From assembly GCA_030154025.1 (NCBI GenBank), contig JASKKT010000012.1, forward strand, positions 1 through 48,276: 48,276 bases of DNA, read 5' to 3'. Numbering within the stretch: position 1 is the stretch's first letter; the number at the start of each line of letters is the position of its first letter. Below are positions 11,782 through 20,444 of this stretch, piece after piece. Source of the DNA: Methanolobus sp. (GTDB taxonomy: Archaea > Halobacteriota > Methanosarcinia > Methanosarcinales > Methanosarcinaceae). The translations under genes and the position numbers were made by a program. The notes beneath the pieces are model-generated. The model was not told the DNA's origin. It saw only the letters and a program-made list of their open reading frames with translations, and ran no database searches.

Positions 11782-12213
11782 TCACACCTGATAGGTATCA
11801 TAAGCCGAGACGCCATTCCCGGTCACTACCTTGACACGGTGCAATCCGGCTCCTGTGAGGCCTGCCACAGTAAGGCTGCGCGTCTCAGCGGGCACCCATA
11901 CAGCAGCAGTCCCGTTAAAAGTATAGGGCTCCAGTTGCCCGTCTATGAGGACGTTCAACTCATCGAACCTGAGTGTTGCACTGCCTGTGTTTGTGAGTGT
12001 CACGGTCAGCTCATAGAGACTACCTGAAGCGGCCGGGACTGAATAGTCGATACTGATTGCCGTATGCAAGCGATCCGTTTGCATCTGATGCTGCTCTACA
12101 GCTGCATCATTTACCAGATCCGAGGATGTGCTCAGTGCAGTATAAGAGAAGGTGCCCACGACCAGAGCAGAAATAAAGAATATGGCAGTGACAACCGCAA
12201 CCTCAAATCCCAT
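11782..12213 (-). CDS. arlF: Archaellar stator protein ArlF (FlaF)
   Basis: 143 residues: an N-terminal membrane helix (VAVVTAIFFISALVVGTFSY) and an external beta-rich domain with Thr-rich strands. This is the architecture of ArlF, which binds the S-layer and forms the stator with ArlG. Its start overlaps the end of arlCE by 11 bases, a strong sign of one transcript. The length is normal for the family. Confidence 0.9.
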   Translation of the reverse strand: MGFEVAVVTAIFFISALVVGTFSYTALSTSSDLVNDAAVEQHQMQTDRLHTAISIDYSVPAASGSLYELTVTLTNTGSATLRFDELNVLIDGQLEPYTFNGTAAVWVPAETRSLTVAGLTGAGLHRVKVVTGNGVSAYDTYQV

Positions 12214-13525
12214 AAAGTTCCTCCAGACCGTGTTTTACTTTGGACATCTCACGGTCTATGGAACTGAGCATATTGCGGTCGATCTTGCGTCCGCAGAGCC
12301 TTTCTATGAAGAGAAGTGACTTGGTATGATCTTCCGGTAGCAAGCGCCATGTAGGCTTTTCCACATAGTAGTCGATGCCGCGGGCATAGGCCATGACCTC
12401 TGAGCGGACATCCTCACTGATCCAGCCTATGTCCACGTAATAATCAAGCGCATCCATGAGATTGTTCCTTCCCACGCGCTCCATCAGGAACTCTATCCAG
12501 TTGAGCAGGACCACCACACTGGTAGGATCGGTCCTCAGGTTCTCCAGGCGCACCAGTGGAAGTCCTTTTTTAGGGTTTTTCCGGGAATTGTCTATATCCG
12601 AATCATCTGATCCCTCTTCGGAAGCATTCTCCAACTCACTCCTTGCATTGTTCATCGGCTGCAAGGCACTTTTCCGCTCCAGCTCATCCACTCTGGCAGA
12701 GATGTTACTTGTTGATTCTGCCAGTTCGAGTATGTTCTGGTCGATCTCCCCGGTCTTGCCTGCAAGTTCCTCGGTCCTGGCATTCAACTGCTCTATGCTC
12801 TCATGCAGCATGGACATGGCATCAGCAAATGCATTAAGCTTGGATTCGATGTCCTGCATCTTTGCTCCAATTTCTTTTGGGATGCCGGGCATACTGAGCT
12901 TATGGGCCACAGTATCCATATCATTCTTAAATATCACAAGCATGTCCGCCAGCTCGGTTATCCTCTTTTCGGTCTTCTCGAACCGCTCTATCGTGGCACG
13001 GGAAGCAACATCATCACCTACGAAGGGATTGATCTGATTGGATACGATCTCATAGAGGGACAGCAGCTCAAGCACGCTCTGGTCGATCTTGTCAACGGTC
13101 TTCCGGATCTCCTCGTTATCACGCTGTACCATGTTCAGGGCCACATCGGCCTTGGAGAGCTTCGATTCAACTTCCTTGATCCTTTTGGCATTTGATTCGA
13201 TCGCCTCCTTCTGCTCGTTATTGACTGGCTGGGAGGCGCCCGGGAACCCTCCTGGACCACCCATGCCAGGAGGCATCATTCCGGGAGGAGAGGGAGGCAT
13301 GCCCGGAGCTGGTCCCAGTCCTGGGGACGGGGGGTTTGAACCTGGGAACCCTGGTGGTGCCCCTGGTGGGATACCAGCAGTCAGGTCCGGCAGGGCGTTC
13401 AGGTCCGGGACACCAGGAGAGAAAGGAAGGTCTCCGGAACCAAAGGGCGAGCTGCCACCTTTACCTGCATCCTTTTTCCCCAGGAGGCCGGTTACTTTTT
13501 TTATGGTATCGCTCAGGCCGGACAT
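12203..13525 (-). CDS. arlCE: Archaellum cytoplasmic ring protein ArlC/E fusion
   Basis: 440 residues. After about 20 residues comes an approximately 80-residue Pro/Gly-rich low-complexity linker, then a predicted coiled coil, an ArlC-type core (LLSLYEIVSNQINPFVG), more coiled coil, and a C-terminal ArlD/E domain (VVVLLNWIEFLMERVG, then ALDYYVDIGWIS). In euryarchaea these proteins connect the motor to chemotaxis through CheF. Fusion of C and E parts is known in some lineages; the long PG-rich linker is striking. It is the first gene of the operon. No archaellin precedes it: upstream is a short AT-rich region and a divergent methyltransferase. There is no clear ribosome-binding site, so the mRNA may be leaderless. 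Confidence 0.85.
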   Translation of the reverse strand: MSGLSDTIKKVTGLLGKKDAGKGGSSPFGSGDLPFSPGVPDLNALPDLTAGIPPGAPPGFPGSNPPSPGLGPAPGMPPSPPGMMPPGMGGPGGFPGASQPVNNEQKEAIESNAKRIKEVESKLSKADVALNMVQRDNEEIRKTVDKIDQSVLELLSLYEIVSNQINPFVGDDVASRATIERFEKTEKRITELADMLVIFKNDMDTVAHKLSMPGIPKEIGAKMQDIESKLNAFADAMSMLHESIEQLNARTEELAGKTGEIDQNILELAESTSNISARVDELERKSALQPMNNARSELENASEEGSDDSDIDNSRKNPKKGLPLVRLENLRTDPTSVVVLLNWIEFLMERVGRNNLMDALDYYVDIGWISEDVRSEVMAYARGIDYYVEKPTWRLLPEDHTKSLLFIERLCGRKIDRNMLSSIDREMSKVKHGLEELYGI

Positions 13526-13646: not shown

Positions 13647-14705
13647 ATGGCTTTAAATCATTTGAGATCACTTTTTCCGGGGATAAGAGTGCCACGCAAG
13701 AAGAAGTTCGAACACAAGATCATCTCTGACAGGGATGGGGTCCGTTTCGCAACACCCGAGGATGTCGCAAGATACAGGGCCAGGAGACTGAAGTGCAGTA
13801 CCATCGCAGATATCAGTTGCGGTGTTGGCGGGCAGACCATATATTTTGCAAGGGAATGTGACCAGGTCTATGCAGTAGAGATAGACCCGAAGAAGATAGC
13901 CTATGCCAAGAAGAACTGCAGGCTTCTTGGCATCGACAATGTGGAATTCATTTGCGGGGACGCACTATCACCCGAAGTTATCCGGCAGTTGCCGGAGCTT
14001 GATATTGTCTTTTCCGATCCCGCAAGACCTCCAACCGAGGACATGCGTGACATTGCCAGCCTGCGACCTTCCATACCCGAAGTCATAAAAGCATACAGTT
14101 CCAGAGCTTCAGGATTTGCTTTTGAGGCGCCTCCGCAGCTCACCCCTGACAGGATACCCTTTGAATGTGAGAAGGAATATATTTCCCTTGAGGGAAAGCT
14201 TAACAGGCTCGACCTGTACTTTGGCAGCCTGATGAAATGTGACACATCGGCAGTATCCCTGCCATCGGAAGCACGTCTTGAGTCCTCATCGGCCATAAAT
14301 GAGCTCAAAACTGCCGAAAGGCTTGCTTCCTTTGCCTACGAGCCCGAGGAAGCTGTCGAAAGAGCAGGACTGCTCCCGCAACTGGCACAGGACCTGTCAG
14401 AACAGGCTCCAGACATCAGTCTTTTCAGGATAGACCGGAAGCGCCTCTTCCTTACATCTGATATGGCCGTGGAACATCCCATGTTAAAGAACAGGTACAA
14501 AGTGCTGTCAACCCAGTATTTTGATACCGGGCAGATCAATGCCTTCCTCAGGAGAAGCGGGTTCGGAACTGTGATATTAAGAGCTGCGGTAGAGCCAGAA
14601 GAGTACTGGGATATTCGCAGGCAGCTGGAAAAGGATCTTAGCGGGGATCGCAAAGCGCACTTATTCCTGAAAGACGGAACAGCGATCCTGTGCGAGACAT
14701 TATGA
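13647..14705 (+). CDS. Class I SAM methyltransferase with THUMP-like C-terminal domain
   Basis: 352 residues. The N-terminal half is a Rossmann methyltransferase: motif I is IADISCGVGGQTIYFA, the motif II acidic residue is in YAVEIDPKKIAYAK, and the catalytic-loop position reads FSDPARPP, in place of the DPPY/NPPY of amino-methylating enzymes. DPAR is typical of the family with a C-terminal THUMP-like domain, which fits the last 100 residues. The substrate is probably RNA, but none is established from sequence. It is monocistronic, divergent from arlCE and convergent with the receiver gene at 14724. Confidence 0.8.
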   Translation: MALNHLRSLFPGIRVPRKKKFEHKIISDRDGVRFATPEDVARYRARRLKCSTIADISCGVGGQTIYFARECDQVYAVEIDPKKIAYAKKNCRLLGIDNVEFICGDALSPEVIRQLPELDIVFSDPARPPTEDMRDIASLRPSIPEVIKAYSSRASGFAFEAPPQLTPDRIPFECEKEYISLEGKLNRLDLYFGSLMKCDTSAVSLPSEARLESSSAINELKTAERLASFAYEPEEAVERAGLLPQLAQDLSEQAPDISLFRIDRKRLFLTSDMAVEHPMLKNRYKVLSTQYFDTGQINAFLRRSGFGTVILRAAVEPEEYWDIRRQLEKDLSGDRKAHLFLKDGTAILCETL

Positions 14706-14723: not shown

Positions 14724-15104
14724 TCAGGAGTTAGGGGTCTTTGTTCCCAGCAATTCCCTGGTCCTTTTTATCAGTTCTTTTCTGCTGAAAGGCTTTGTAA
14801 TGTAATCATCCGCCTTGAGCACATGCAGGCCAAGCATTTTATCGAATTCCTGGCTCTTGACCGTGAGCATTGCAACAGGCAGGCCCGGGTCCTTTTCCTT
14901 GATCTTGTGGAAGGTCTCCCAGCCATTCATATCAGGCATCATGATGTCCAGTAGAATGAGATCGGGTTTTTCCATATCCATCAGCTCAAGGCACTCAAAC
15001 CCGCTGCTTGCGCCTATGACCTCAATATTCTCCGACTCAAGGATGATCTTTACAAGGTCTATGGTATCCGGCTCATCGTCTACCACCATGATTTTTGGAT
15101 GCAT
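14724..15104 (-). CDS. Stand-alone response regulator receiver (CheY-like)
   Basis: 126 residues, a single receiver domain with no output domain. Acidic pocket D9/D10, phospho-acceptor D53 in LILLDIMMPD, T81 and K104 (ITKPF) are all present, so it should be phosphorylatable. GGAG precedes the ATG. It lies 61 bases after the RecA-like/receiver fusion and in the same direction. No histidine kinase is in the window, so the phosphodonor is elsewhere. It could pass a signal to the archaellum or to the KaiC-like proteins; both are inferences from position. Confidence 0.93.
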   Translation of the reverse strand: MHPKIMVVDDEPDTIDLVKIILESENIEVIGASSGFECLELMDMEKPDLILLDIMMPDMNGWETFHKIKEKDPGLPVAMLTVKSQEFDKMLGLHVLKADDYITKPFSRKELIKRTRELLGTKTPNS

Positions 15105-15165
15105 CGTATACTCCTGTTAAAGAAATGCTCTACGCTAGAGAATAATATAGCACTGAAATATATAA

Positions 15166-16230
15166 TTATTCCTCTAGGACCCACCCAAGCCGCCTCATCA
15201 CCATTTTTATCCGGGCTTTAACTTCCCTTTTATCAAAGGGCTTGGATATATAATCATCAATGCCAAGCTCCATGCCCTTCACTTTGTCCTCTATCGCGGT
15301 CTTTGCAGAGATCATGATAACAGGAATATCATTAGCCGTCTTGCTGTTCTTGAGCTGCTCGACAACCTCATACCCGTCCATGTCAGGCATCATGATGTCA
15401 AGTAATATCAGGTCAGGATGTTCCTTCAGGGTGATATCGATCGCCTCCTGACCGTTATAGGCTACCAGGAAATCATAGGGCTCGCTGATGAGGGATAACT
15501 TCAGCAGTTCCGGTATGTCAGGCTCGTCATCCACTATGAGGATCTTCAGCCGGTCCCTCTTGACTTTCCTGCGGGCATATTCCAGCCTGATAGAGCCATC
15601 CTCCACCATGTACCTGAAATCAAAATCCTTGAGCCCGATCTGGGTGTGCACCTCACCGATACTGGTCACATCGAGGATAACATCAAAAAAGGACTTTACC
15701 AGTATTTCATTCTCCTGGGAAAGTATATCCTTCAGAAGCATAGAGGCGATGGCGCCTTCTTTCTCATGCACTTTCTTCTCCACGAACTGCATAAAGGTCT
15801 CGACCACCTGCATGGTATCGGTGGCCAGCACGTTCATGTTGTCCATTACCAACAGGGCGCGGGCATCCCTCTCAAATAGGTTTGATATATGGGATGCCAT
15901 CTTGGTGTAGTCCGCAACCGAGCTGCAGTAAAAGGTCCCCTGCTGTGGCGGCTTGCCTGGCACTTCAACATCAATGAAGAAGAACCGGTCCATAAGGTCA
16001 CTAACATCGAACCCGAAATCCTTGAACTTCCCCAGCACCTTATCACGTGGATAATTGAGGCACAGCCACACGACATTTCTTGCAGGGTCGTTCCGGAGTA
16101 CATCGTAAACATGAAGATAGACTAAGCGCTCGACAGAACTGTCAACCTGGGCAAAGAACAGTGAACTCTTATCTGATAACTCGTCCCTTAGAGTTGCCAG
16201 GATTTCCTTAGTCTGATCATCCATTATCAT
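15166..16230 (-). CDS. P-loop-less RecA/KaiC-like domain fused to a receiver domain
   Basis: 354 residues. Residues 1-220 resemble a RecA/KaiC-type core: alternating strands and helices with a Walker-B-like strand RALLVMDNMNVL (about 124-135). There is no Walker A motif, so ATP hydrolysis is unlikely. Residues 228-350 are a complete receiver: D234/D235, phospho-acceptor D278 (LILLDIMMPDMDG), and the lysine in YISKPF. The start may be 16230 or 16224. It lies between the KaiC-like gene at 16318 (gap 87) and the stand-alone receiver (gap 61), all co-directional. The N-terminal fold assignment comes from pattern only; the receiver is certain. Confidence 0.85.
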   Translation of the reverse strand: MIMDDQTKEILATLRDELSDKSSLFFAQVDSSVERLVYLHVYDVLRNDPARNVVWLCLNYPRDKVLGKFKDFGFDVSDLMDRFFFIDVEVPGKPPQQGTFYCSSVADYTKMASHISNLFERDARALLVMDNMNVLATDTMQVVETFMQFVEKKVHEKEGAIASMLLKDILSQENEILVKSFFDVILDVTSIGEVHTQIGLKDFDFRYMVEDGSIRLEYARRKVKRDRLKILIVDDEPDIPELLKLSLISEPYDFLVAYNGQEAIDITLKEHPDLILLDIMMPDMDGYEVVEQLKNSKTANDIPVIMISAKTAIEDKVKGMELGIDDYISKPFDKREVKARIKMVMRRLGWVLEE

Positions 16231-16317
16231 TTACCTTTTAAACTTGTTTTGTAAATATTAGTGCTATATTCATATTAATGTTTGGGGTGTAGTGGAAAAA
16301 AGAAATAAGAGAAAGAA

Positions 16318-17658
16318 TCACTTGATCGGAACAAGCCTGACCTGGGGATAACCCGAGCTGAAATCCATCTCGGCCACATACATGCCTGTCTTTGGGACGA
16401 TCCCGTACATTACAAGGGTCTTATCCACGTTCTCGAACTTCCAGTGGGTGGTGGCCATATGAGCCACGGAGTCAGTGATCTTCTGGCCGTGTTTTGCAAC
16501 GGCGACCACGATGTTCTCGGTGGTCTTTGTAACGGAAGCGATCTGTCCTATCACAGCGCCTATGTTCTCCCAGCCATAACTGTACTCCATGCTGTCAAGA
16601 CCTATGTAGTCAAGAAGAGGAGAGCCTAACTGGTGTATCATCTCGTGCTTTGACTGGTAGAATATCTCCATATCCTTGTACAGGTTGCCTGAGAAAGCTT
16701 CCACATAAGCGGGCATGCGACCCTTCTGGTCACGTATCTCGAATCCCTTGAACTGGCGGGAGAAATTGGCCTCATTGGTGAAGGGAGAGATCATTCTCTT
16801 TTCAGTCTCAACACTGGTCCCTTCAGTGGGAATGCTAAGCATAGCCCTGCCCATGTTCAGGTGGTTTATGAAGGTCGGTAGCAGGATACTGTAAAATGAA
16901 TCGCCCACACCGCTTGTTATCTCGAAGAGGTTGAAACTCCCCTTCTGGTAGCCGCCGCCCAGTATCTCGTCAAAGTCAGGGCTGCCGGTGGATATCTTAC
17001 TGTGAGCAGGGTCCGTCACAGGAGAGGGGATCAAAGTGTGTTCGGGATATGAGACCCTGAAAGGCTCAAAACTGGTAAACGTTCCGTTATGCAGGGTGAA
17101 CAGGTACCTTGACTGGGACATGCCAACACCGCGCAGCTTGAGCAGATGGATCTTACGGATATCGCTTCCCGCCATTTCGGTTATCTCGACAGAGACCACC
17201 CCGTCGACAAGGTAGTCCAGTGAGTCGATATCGGTCTTTTCCGTGATCATCACAAGGTCGGCATTGACCTTCCTTGAGAAATCCATGAGAAGGCGTTCCA
17301 GCTCGAACTTGTTCTCCTCCCAGTGTACAGACCTTGTGGTGGCAATGCTGAGAGAGTCAATGGAGTCCACAACGATCATGGGCTTTGAGTCGCTTGACTC
17401 CCATATTGCCTTGATGCGGGAGGCGAGCATCCTCAGGAAATCCTCATTGTTATTGAAATCCCCCTCTATCCAGGGGAACTTGCCGTATGATGAGGACTTA
17501 TCTATCCGGGGGGATATGTAGATGCAGTTCCCGCCGGGGCATAACTCATGTAGTATCCCGAATACGAAAGTAGTCTTGCCGGTCCCGGGCTTGCCCTTGA
17601 CTACAAGGGACTTGCCGAACTGGGAAGAGAAGAACTGCCGAATTTCCCCGGGGATCAT
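16318..17658 (-). CDS. Two-domain RecA/KaiC-like P-loop protein (GvpD-like)
   Basis: 446 residues. The first half is a RecA-superfamily ATPase with Walker A GKPGTGKTT (22-30) and Walker B MIVVDSIDSL (about 94-103). The second half, from about residue 220, opens with a KaiC-like STGSPDFDEILGGG start and a nucleotide-binding-like loop that reads ITSGVGDSF, with no lysine, so it is probably inactive. Proteins like this in methanogens are often named after GvpD of gas vesicle regulation, but no gas vesicle genes are present here, so I avoid that name. The ATG has GAGGTG overlapping the alaS stop, only 8 bases away, implying coupling to alaS. Confidence 0.85.
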   Translation of the reverse strand: MIPGEIRQFFSSQFGKSLVVKGKPGTGKTTFVFGILHELCPGGNCIYISPRIDKSSSYGKFPWIEGDFNNNEDFLRMLASRIKAIWESSDSKPMIVVDSIDSLSIATTRSVHWEENKFELERLLMDFSRKVNADLVMITEKTDIDSLDYLVDGVVSVEITEMAGSDIRKIHLLKLRGVGMSQSRYLFTLHNGTFTSFEPFRVSYPEHTLIPSPVTDPAHSKISTGSPDFDEILGGGYQKGSFNLFEITSGVGDSFYSILLPTFINHLNMGRAMLSIPTEGTSVETEKRMISPFTNEANFSRQFKGFEIRDQKGRMPAYVEAFSGNLYKDMEIFYQSKHEMIHQLGSPLLDYIGLDSMEYSYGWENIGAVIGQIASVTKTTENIVVAVAKHGQKITDSVAHMATTHWKFENVDKTLVMYGIVPKTGMYVAEMDFSSGYPQVRLVPIK

Positions 17659-17666
17659 GCAGCACC

Positions 17667-20444
17667 TCAGTTTGCCTTCAACTGCTGCTTGAGCAGGTCG
17701 ATTCCAGTCTGCAGGGAGTCGTTGATCCTGAGAGACTCAGGACCGCCACCGCGGGCCATGTTAGGACGACCGCCACCACCACCGCCCACTGTCCTGGACA
17801 TTGTGGAAACGATCTTCCCGGCATCTGCGCCTGCCTTAAGCGCATCCTCGCCTGCAGCTACCACTATCTTGACACCGCTACAATCGCTTGCAAGAATGGC
17901 AATGACATCCTTGTTCCCGGCAAGCTCGCCTGCTATCTTGACAAGCTCGTCAGCGTCCGCATTTGGCACCAGTTCTGCTACTACCCGCATGCCGCCGATA
18001 ACGCAGGCGCTGTCTGCCATCCGGCTCACACGCATACGCGCAAGCTCGTCTTTCAGGCGCTCATTGTCCTTCTTGAACTCCTTCCACTCATTGAAAAAGC
18101 GGTCGATGGTTGCTGGAAGGTGCTCCGGCAGAACTCTCAGGGCCTCTGCGGACTGGTTCAGGCATTCCTCCATCCTCTGAGTGGCCCTCACTGCAGCAAG
18201 ACCGGCAGCATACTCTATTCGCTCGACACCGTCCTGGATGCGCTCGGTCTTGAGAATCTTTATCGGTCCCACAAGACCTGTGCTGGTGCAGTGGGTACCT
18301 CCGCAGGCCTCCACGTCATCAGCTACCTTGAGCACACGTATCCTGTTTCCTGGAGGGACCCCTCCCTGGTACAGCTTGAAGCCGTATTTCTTCTCCGCCT
18401 CTATCCTGTCCAGCCATTCGGCTGTGACACGCTGGTTCTCCATAACCGTGCGATTTGCGATTAGCTCTATGCGATTCAGCTCTTCGGGGGTGATGCGTTT
18501 GTAGTGGGAGATGTCCAGGCGGGCACGATCCGTGCTTTTCTGCGCACCTGCCTGCCAGACATGATCACCAAGCACCTTTCTTGCTGCATCGTTGACTATG
18601 TGCGTTGCAGTGTGGTGACAGGCATGGGCCATCCTCCTTTCCTCGTCCACTTTACCGACAACCAGATCGCCTTTGCGAAGGTGGAGTTCATCCTCGATCC
18701 CTTCAACTATGTGCACGATCACGCCACTGACCACCTGTACGTCGATGACTTTCAGGACATTGTCGTAGACCGTTATGGTTCCGTGGTCCGCAGGCTGTCC
18801 GCCGCCCTCCGGATAGAAGAGCGTGCTGTCAAGCACAAGGTGGTTGTCGAAAACGTCAAGCACCACAGCTTCGAACTTCATCCTGGTGGGCTCGTCGTAG
18901 AAGAGGCGCTTTGTCTTCGGCAGCTTCTCCACGCGCTCCATGTACGGGAACACTTTCTCTTCCTTTGCCTCTGCCTTGCTGTGACCCTCTGCCACCAGGG
19001 AGTAGAAGTTGTCCGGGAGCTCTACCTCGACACCCATCTCGGAAGCAGCCTCCTTTGAGATCTCAGGAGGGATGCCGTGGCTGTCATACATCTCAATAAG
19101 CGTAGCCAGGGGAATCTTCTCACCGGTGGACTTGTAGTGCTTGGCGGATTTCTGGATCATGCGTTTGCCGCGCTCAAGTGTTTCGTCGAACTTCCTTTCC
19201 TCATGGGCAAGGATGTCTTCGATAACATCCAACTTTTCGGCGAACTCAGGATACTCTGGCAGATTCCGGATGTGCATGTTCACAATATCGGCCAGTGAGG
19301 CATCGATGTCCATGTCCTTCATCATCCTGAGGGTCCTGCGCAGCACAAGGCGGGCAAGATAGCCTGCTTTCACGTTGGACGGGATCACGCCGTCAGCAAG
19401 CATGAATGTCAGGCAGCGGGTGTGGTCCGTGATAGCATACACGCTCTCAACAGGTTCCATGATGGCAGAAAGCTTCTCCACCGAGGTACCAATGCTGGAT
19501 GCCACCTGTTTGCGCAGCTGAAGGAGATTTGCCTTTTCACTCACGTCCATGAGCCCTGCAAGGCGTGCATTCTGGGCAAGGATGTTGGCATACTCCGGAT
19601 CATCGATCTCGTGCTCAAGGCCTGCGAGCTGCATGAGCTCGTTGACAATACCCGGGAAGACAGCATCATATATTGTGGGAGAGCCCTTGGAAGCCCATAC
19701 AAAGCGCTCAAGGCCGTATCCTGTGTCCACGATATAGTTGTCCATCTTGCGGTAGGTCTCGCCCTTGATAGGGATGGTCCCATCCTTTGATTGCTGGAGA
19801 TCCATGAACACCAGTGTGGCAACCTCAAGGCCGCCTATGAGTGCCTCTACGCAGGGACCGGCGTTCCCACCTCCTGCCCAGGGCTCCTCCTTGTAGGTGA
19901 CTGCAAGAGGGTCAACTCCCAGTGAGTTGAACAGTTCGTCGCACAGTCCCATTGTCCTTTCCTTCCAGTATATTTCCTCGTCTTTCTTATTGAAGGCGTG
20001 GTGAGCCATCATCTCAAAGGTCGTGAGATGACGCCCGCTCCTTCCCACTGCATCAAGGTCCGAGAGACGTATGCATGGCTGGGATATGGTCAGGGGATTG
20101 GCCGGAGGCGGGACCTGGCCAGATGTGACGAAGGGCTGGAAGTCTGCGATGGATGCAATGGTAAGGTAGATGTCGTCCCTCCACCTGGCAACCACAGGAT
20201 ACCTCTCAAGCCTTGTGTGGCCGCGGTCCTCAAAGAACTTAAGGTAATACTCCCTCATCTCGGCAAGGTCGAACTTCCTGTTAAAGACAGGGCTGCCTAT
20301 GAAGGAATATGGGTCACACGGGGCATCCCCGCATGTGCTTCTCTCAGGGTCCCTTGTCCAGTAGAATTTTCCGCATTTTGAACATTGCTTACGGACAAAA
20401 CCGTTTTCGGAAAAAAAATCAAGTTGATACTCATCCTCAAGCAT
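17667..20444 (-). CDS. alaS: Alanyl-tRNA synthetase, archaeal type
   Basis: Charges tRNA-Ala in the cytoplasm. 925 residues, including the archaeal N-terminal extension with CSKCGKFYWTRD and a CGDAPC zinc-type cluster, the class II catalytic core (ARWRDDIYLTIASIADFQP), the editing-domain zinc motifs HTATH and CGGTHC, and the C-Ala domain ending in a glycine stretch (VGGGGGGRPNMARGGG). A GGAG site precedes the ATG. It leads a minus-strand run that continues into the KaiC-like gene 8 bases downstream. Confidence 0.97.
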   Translation of the reverse strand: MLEDEYQLDFFSENGFVRKQCSKCGKFYWTRDPERSTCGDAPCDPYSFIGSPVFNRKFDLAEMREYYLKFFEDRGHTRLERYPVVARWRDDIYLTIASIADFQPFVTSGQVPPPANPLTISQPCIRLSDLDAVGRSGRHLTTFEMMAHHAFNKKDEEIYWKERTMGLCDELFNSLGVDPLAVTYKEEPWAGGGNAGPCVEALIGGLEVATLVFMDLQQSKDGTIPIKGETYRKMDNYIVDTGYGLERFVWASKGSPTIYDAVFPGIVNELMQLAGLEHEIDDPEYANILAQNARLAGLMDVSEKANLLQLRKQVASSIGTSVEKLSAIMEPVESVYAITDHTRCLTFMLADGVIPSNVKAGYLARLVLRRTLRMMKDMDIDASLADIVNMHIRNLPEYPEFAEKLDVIEDILAHEERKFDETLERGKRMIQKSAKHYKSTGEKIPLATLIEMYDSHGIPPEISKEAASEMGVEVELPDNFYSLVAEGHSKAEAKEEKVFPYMERVEKLPKTKRLFYDEPTRMKFEAVVLDVFDNHLVLDSTLFYPEGGGQPADHGTITVYDNVLKVIDVQVVSGVIVHIVEGIEDELHLRKGDLVVGKVDEERRMAHACHHTATHIVNDAARKVLGDHVWQAGAQKSTDRARLDISHYKRITPEELNRIELIANRTVMENQRVTAEWLDRIEAEKKYGFKLYQGGVPPGNRIRVLKVADDVEACGGTHCTSTGLVGPIKILKTERIQDGVERIEYAAGLAAVRATQRMEECLNQSAEALRVLPEHLPATIDRFFNEWKEFKKDNERLKDELARMRVSRMADSACVIGGMRVVAELVPNADADELVKIAGELAGNKDVIAILASDCSGVKIVVAAGEDALKAGADAGKIVSTMSRTVGGGGGGRPNMARGGGPESLRINDSLQTGIDLLKQQLKAN

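Follow-up and report, generated by a model that had tools for sequence, protein, structure and literature searches.

An inactivated KaiC domain fused to an intact receiver beside alaS in Methanolobus and related genera: a candidate response regulator

The 48,276-nucleotide stretch of Methanolobus DNA analyzed here (the window) encodes a protein, RRf, in which a KaiC domain without a Walker A motif is joined to an intact receiver domain. We propose, with a probability of roughly 0.5, that RRf is a two-component response regulator that uses its dead KaiC domain as the output, signals by contact, and ancestrally received phosphate from a histidine kinase encoded at the same locus. The fusion itself (iKaiC-REC) is prior art and is not claimed as new.

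Results

The locus comprises the following features.

12203..13525, minus strand: first archaellum operon gene (arlCDE-type), followed by arlF, arlG, arlH, and arlI; context only
13647..14705, plus strand: methyltransferase gene, convergent with the receiver gene (Pfam)
14724..15104, minus strand: REC, stand-alone receiver, 126 aa (Pfam Response_reg, 102.7 bits)
15166..16230, minus strand: RRf, inactivated KaiC domain plus intact receiver, 354 aa (Pfam, AF2, Foldseek, and profile match)
16273..16286, minus strand: promoter-like element CCCAAACATTAATA, 42 bases upstream of the start codon of RRf
16318..17658, minus strand: GKL, ATPase of the GvpD/KaiC family with two RecA domains, 446 aa (Pfam, and motifs in orthologs)
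17667..20444, minus strand: alaS, upstream neighbour of RRf in all nine genera that have it (Pfam and locus maps)

The three co-directional genes lie where an earlier note on this DNA had placed them, as does the 8-base gap between alaS (ending at 17667) and the ATPase gene (at 17658). Gaps of 87 and 61 bases separate the ATPase gene from RRf and RRf from REC, respectively. The same note set the genes beside the archaellum operon; this is correct, although they do not adjoin it, as the plus-strand methyltransferase gene intervenes. The order alaS-ATPase-RRf-REC-methyltransferase-arl recurs in each of the 22 other Methanolobus loci mapped, within the limits of their contigs. Because the surrounding housekeeping genes moaA, surE, and cbiA are equally collinear in these loci, synteny within the genus is by itself no evidence for joint function. 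No Rfam match was found at 13-21 kb of the window.

The receiver of RRf occupies residues 228-347 (Pfam Response_reg, 107.5 bits, at 230-342), and D234, D235, D278, S308, and K330 are kept in the ortholog alignment. The N-terminal domain (residues 1-220) is claimed by no Pfam family and gave no significant match in a PDB sequence search, so fold and profile comparisons were needed. The best PDB matches of the AlphaFold (AF2) model (pLDDT 87.7, from a 24-sequence alignment) in Foldseek are KaiC chains at E of about 1e-11, a score that derives partly from both RRf domains being aligned along KaiC, with an rmsd of about 11-12 A. When the N-domain profile was compared with a KaiC/ArlH alignment, the match had a probability of 96% (E=3.3e-9) and set the Walker A loop against AQVDSSVER. 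A viral fold library returned only receiver and generic RecA-type matches. Model and profile thus agree on the RecA/KaiC fold that the earlier note had supposed, rather than an unrelated one, and its description of a RecA-like domain without Walker A on an intact receiver is likewise upheld, with VDSxxER standing in place of the motif. The Walker B residue Asp130 does not vary, even in relatives that share only 19% identity, and W55, C57, D87, C102, D107, and E175 are conserved away from the P-loop.

RRf is present in 62 of 101 Methanosarcinaceae genomes, distributed over nine genera, and was absent from the genera g7 and g11 in the same search. Genera, loci, and genomes carry g, L, and G numbers here; g1 is Methanolobus and G000 the genome of the window, g3, g5, g6, g8, and g25 are probably Methanococcoides, Methanohalobium, Methanosalsum, Methanohalophilus, and Methanomethylovorans, respectively, and g7 and g11 appear to be Methanosarcina-like. 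In all nine RRf genera alaS adjoins RRf, or only GKL and/or kinase genes intervene. The RRf and alaS trees both recover the groups g1+g25 and g4+g23, which indicates that RRf is inherited vertically.

The GvpD-type ATPase has a narrower distribution. It occurs only in g1, g4, and g23 (on one contig with RRf in three g4 loci) and is missing from six of the nine RRf genera, and is therefore no obligate partner of RRf. The three genes are neighbours in every Methanolobus locus mapped, but most RRf genera lack the ATPase, and the set has been assembled from parts with different histories and is partly lineage-specific. The ATPase scores 72.2 bits with Pfam GvpD_P-loop (cut-off 24), 40.1 with KaiC (26.6), and 30.1 with GvpD_bR2 (27.9), and its profile matches KaiC at E=3e-15. 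Its first Walker A reads GKPGTGKT, with GxPGTGKT invariant in 22 orthologs, and its second P-loop, SGVGDS, equally invariant, lacks the lysine, in agreement with the intact and degenerate nucleotide sites read earlier. The NCBIfam equivalog cut-offs for circadian KaiC were not reached (43 bits vs 408 for PRK09302.1 and 19.1 vs 546 for circ_KaiC). Although the ATPase and the RRf N-domain both match KaiC, their profiles do not match each other, and they are thus not close kin. An AlphaFold model of the ATPase was set aside (pLDDT 56).

The 14-mer CCCAAACATTAATA stands 42-52 bases before the RRf start and is identical in the fetched Methanolobus loci, g5, and g8. Variants matching at 11-13 of 14 positions are similarly placed in g24, g25, and three of the four g4 loci, and weaker ones (8-10 of 14) in g3, g6, g23, and the remaining g4 locus. 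Among the fetched loci, the exact element is present in single copy, and only where the region upstream of RRf is included. It resembles an archaeal BRE plus TATA box, and its conservation suggests that in most of these genera RRf probably has a transcript of its own, and that the set is not a simple operon. The ATPase gene is probably transcribed together with alaS.

The earlier note had stated that no kinase is present, which is true of the window; three related genera nevertheless encode an orthologous histidine kinase between alaS and RRf. In g4 (L095, L105) and g23 (L134), divergent genes for a phosphonate-binding-type lipoprotein and the kinase lie directly upstream of RRf, the kinase of L105 having the domains sCache-HAMP-PAS-HisKA-HATPase. 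A divergent kinase gene (HisKA-HATPase) occupies the same spot in g25 (L131), as does an open frame matching the kinase in L135. The kinase gene is lacking from L104 in g4 and L130 in g25, and in g3, g5, g6, g8, and g24 none was seen adjoining RRf. In a tree of the locus kinases and the top matches of 13 genomes (a sample of kinases rather than all), those of g4, g23, and g25 group with a relocated kinase of Methanolobus G001 in a single clade (100/99), where the g25 and Methanolobus kinases pair up (96/89); the alaS tree joins the same two genera (98/96). The G001 gene sits elsewhere in its genome, adjoining its own binding protein gene. An ortholog was found in one of four Methanolobus genomes searched (G001, 532 bits), and none in the window's genome (best match 158 bits). 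The simplest history would be that the ancestor of g1, g25, g4, and g23 had the kinase at this locus and that Methanolobus moved or lost it. The link between kinase and RRf is a case of guilt by association, suggested by divergent adjacency.

The stand-alone receiver has an intact phosphorylation site (D9, D10, D53, T81, K104), as described earlier. Its gene comes directly after RRf in g1, g4, g6, and g23, and one g25 genome has a receiver match in that position. For g3, g8, and g24, the best match to the receiver is encoded together with the same methyltransferase next to the rpl3 operon; the pair relocates as one block. Small ORFs that look acidic or coiled-coil precede the receiver in g8 and g3 (L204 5890-7128, L205, L207).

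Across 101 genomes, RRf and ArlCDE occur together in 53, RRf without ArlCDE in nine, ArlCDE without RRf in two, and neither in 37; we give no p-value, since shared ancestry would make one meaningless. A search for ArlI in all nine RRf-only genomes gave just distant ArlI-like ATPases in eight of them, with best E values of about 1e-79 to 1e-86; archaellum-bearing genomes with an uninterrupted ArlI, among those searched, reached 1e-285 or better. G060 (76% complete), the remaining one of the nine, gave no ArlI match at all. In g3, g8, and g24, RRf remains with alaS and not with arl. In two incomplete g4 genomes without a detectable archaellum, G091 and G103 (the latter no more than 60% complete), ATPase and receiver are missing as well, a joint absence that hints at a link to motility. 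The window's genome has a complete separate che operon (CheY, CheB, CheA, CheC, CheR) on contig C32, so that the stand-alone receiver is not the CheY of that operon. CheF (PF04283) gave no match in any contig of this genome at E<=0.001 and matched three control genomes; a divergent CheF could escape such a search.

Several further observations concern these genes. In G031 (L098 737-4234), G067, G077, and Methanolobus G025 (L083 15344-18862), ArlI carries an in-frame, intein-like insertion of about 600 residues, located in each case behind residue 397 or so, and in G025 a Pfam intein splicing domain matches below the family cut-off. A gene for a PilM/FtsA-like actin-fold ATPase lies inside the che operon of the window's genome, between cheC and cheR (L210 9858-11978, C32). 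The C-terminal part of ArlCDE recurs at about 50% identity inside frames of roughly 940 aa elsewhere (G000:C61:1023-1445, and in many genomes).

Relatives of the dead domain outside Methanosarcinaceae (in the groups f3, f5, f20, and f32) are 235-312 aa long and lack a receiver; several end in a hydrophobic, membrane-type helix, and weak Pfam similarity to DUF835 and DUF7090 was seen. In f5 and f20 the dead-domain gene overlaps a KaiC gene at the latter's 3' end, and the P-loop of that KaiC is intact (L102 9064-10513, L187 7141-8641, L189 6722-8222). These pairs, although distant from the RRf domain (19-24% identity), are the best support for a pairing of dead with active KaiC. The L187 pair lies about 2 kb from an arlI-like gene. 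At L190 (339-2617) a MEDS-PadR fusion, a V4R protein, and a dead-KaiC protein are encoded in a row.

Discussion

KaiC-like ATPases are proposed signalling hubs of archaea. We infer the phosphorelay, docking, partner, and output of RRf as follows. A histidine kinase would phosphorylate D278, and this would alter the docking of the dead domain on a KaiC-type or other RecA-type partner; such phosphorylation-dependent docking is plausible. The signal would pass through protein contact and not DNA binding, and archaeal two-component outputs act mostly by protein contact (PMC5847659). The ancestral kinase would be the one whose gene persists between alaS and RRf in g4, g23, and g25; in g4 and g23 this gene adjoins that of the phosphonate-binding-type lipoprotein. 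If Methanolobus lost this kinase from the locus, RRf must use another of the many kinases of that genus. The GvpD-type ATPase would have entered later, in one part of the family, and would be at most a lineage-specific partner. The stand-alone receiver, whose gene would be older and move independently, may take phosphate from the same kinase as RRf.

A more specific version, in which the binding protein and kinase pair phosphorylates a pseudo-KaiC that then caps or remodels an active oligomer of the KaiC or GvpD type and thereby switches a downstream target, is tentative and on the unlikely side. We do not dismiss it, since dead-domain genes overlap active KaiC genes in distant relatives.

It is also conceivable, if somewhat unlikely, that the three genes are neighbours without joint function, differing in age and origin and merely sharing a conserved stretch beside alaS. 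Their different distributions and separate movements agree with this, as does the generally high collinearity around alaS (surE, moaA, cbiA), but the adjacency of RRf and the receiver in four genera, with a match downstream in one g25 genome, and the orthologous kinase at the same spot in three genera argue for more than chance proximity.

We consider it unlikely that RRf is a phosphorylation-controlled dead subunit of the upstream ATPase and that the set tunes the archaellum, as the earlier note had suggested. The two genes adjoin in every Methanolobus locus mapped and share a contig in three g4 loci, dead and active KaiC genes are paired elsewhere, and two g4 genomes lack archaellum, ATPase, and receiver together; CirA and CirD also affect archaella and motility in Haloferax (PMC13286277). 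However, a complex specific to the set is unsupported, because the ATPase is missing from six of nine genera and RRf has its own promoter-like element. The proposed tuning of motility is weakened by the nine genomes that keep RRf without a detectable ArlCDE ortholog, and RRf is not simply an archaellum part. Together with the separate che operon and its own CheY, this makes a role in motility only unlikely, and a motility role that arrived later with the ATPase possible.

A quite improbable alternative to output by docking on an ATPase is that the dead domain works in the manner of MEDS or DUF835 domains, either sensing a ligand and passing the signal to the receiver or serving as an oligomerisation platform. 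The residues conserved away from the P-loop and the weak DUF835 and DUF7090 similarity of relatives would fit this, but the receiver is normally the input of response regulators, and no ligand is known.

If RRf is a response regulator acting by contact, the related genera that hold the kinase, the receiver-controlled dead KaiC, and an active ATPase together would form a compact test system for signal entry into KaiC-like hubs, with the kinase, the phosphorylation site, and a candidate partner all specified.

Comparison with known systems

GvpD is a P-loop regulator of haloarchaeal gas vesicles that represses gas vesicle formation and acts on GvpE. The window ATPase resembles it in passing both Pfam GvpD gathering scores and in its intact first P-loop, and differs in length (446 aa vs 492-548 aa in two homologs, L199 and L200, that are probably haloarchaeal); no gas vesicle genes were seen near it. 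ArlH, whose gene lies about 3.5 kb from the receiver gene, is likewise of the KaiC superfamily, but it is a single-domain protein with an intact P-loop and a member of the archaellum operon, whereas RRf persists in genomes without a detectable archaellum. In Haloferax volcanii, deletions of the KaiC-like CirA and CirD change archaellation and motility, and cirA is encoded close to an archaellin gene (PMC13286277). CirA and CirD are KaiC-like, as are proteins of the window set, but the passages of that paper that concern them mention no receiver, and RRf lacks Walker A.

The closest counterpart is the iKaiC-REC fusion, which Galperin et al. 2018 record from six genera of Methanosarcinaceae, one of them Methanolobus, with ABE53050/Q12U26 as an example and Makarova et al. 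2017 (mBio) cited for detail (PMC5847659). RRf has its N-terminal domain of the KaiC superfamily, inactivated Walker A, and intact C-terminal receiver, and among 295 genomes of the phylum the receiver fusion is confined to Methanosarcinaceae, with only three open frames of 270-274 aa, all without a receiver, outside the family. The earlier impression that no such system had been described is thus mistaken as regards the fusion. The passages of Galperin et al. 2018 on iKaiC-REC treat its domain architecture, which is that of RRf, and to these the present analysis adds the gene neighbourhood, the kinase, the promoter-like element, and the link to archaellum loss.
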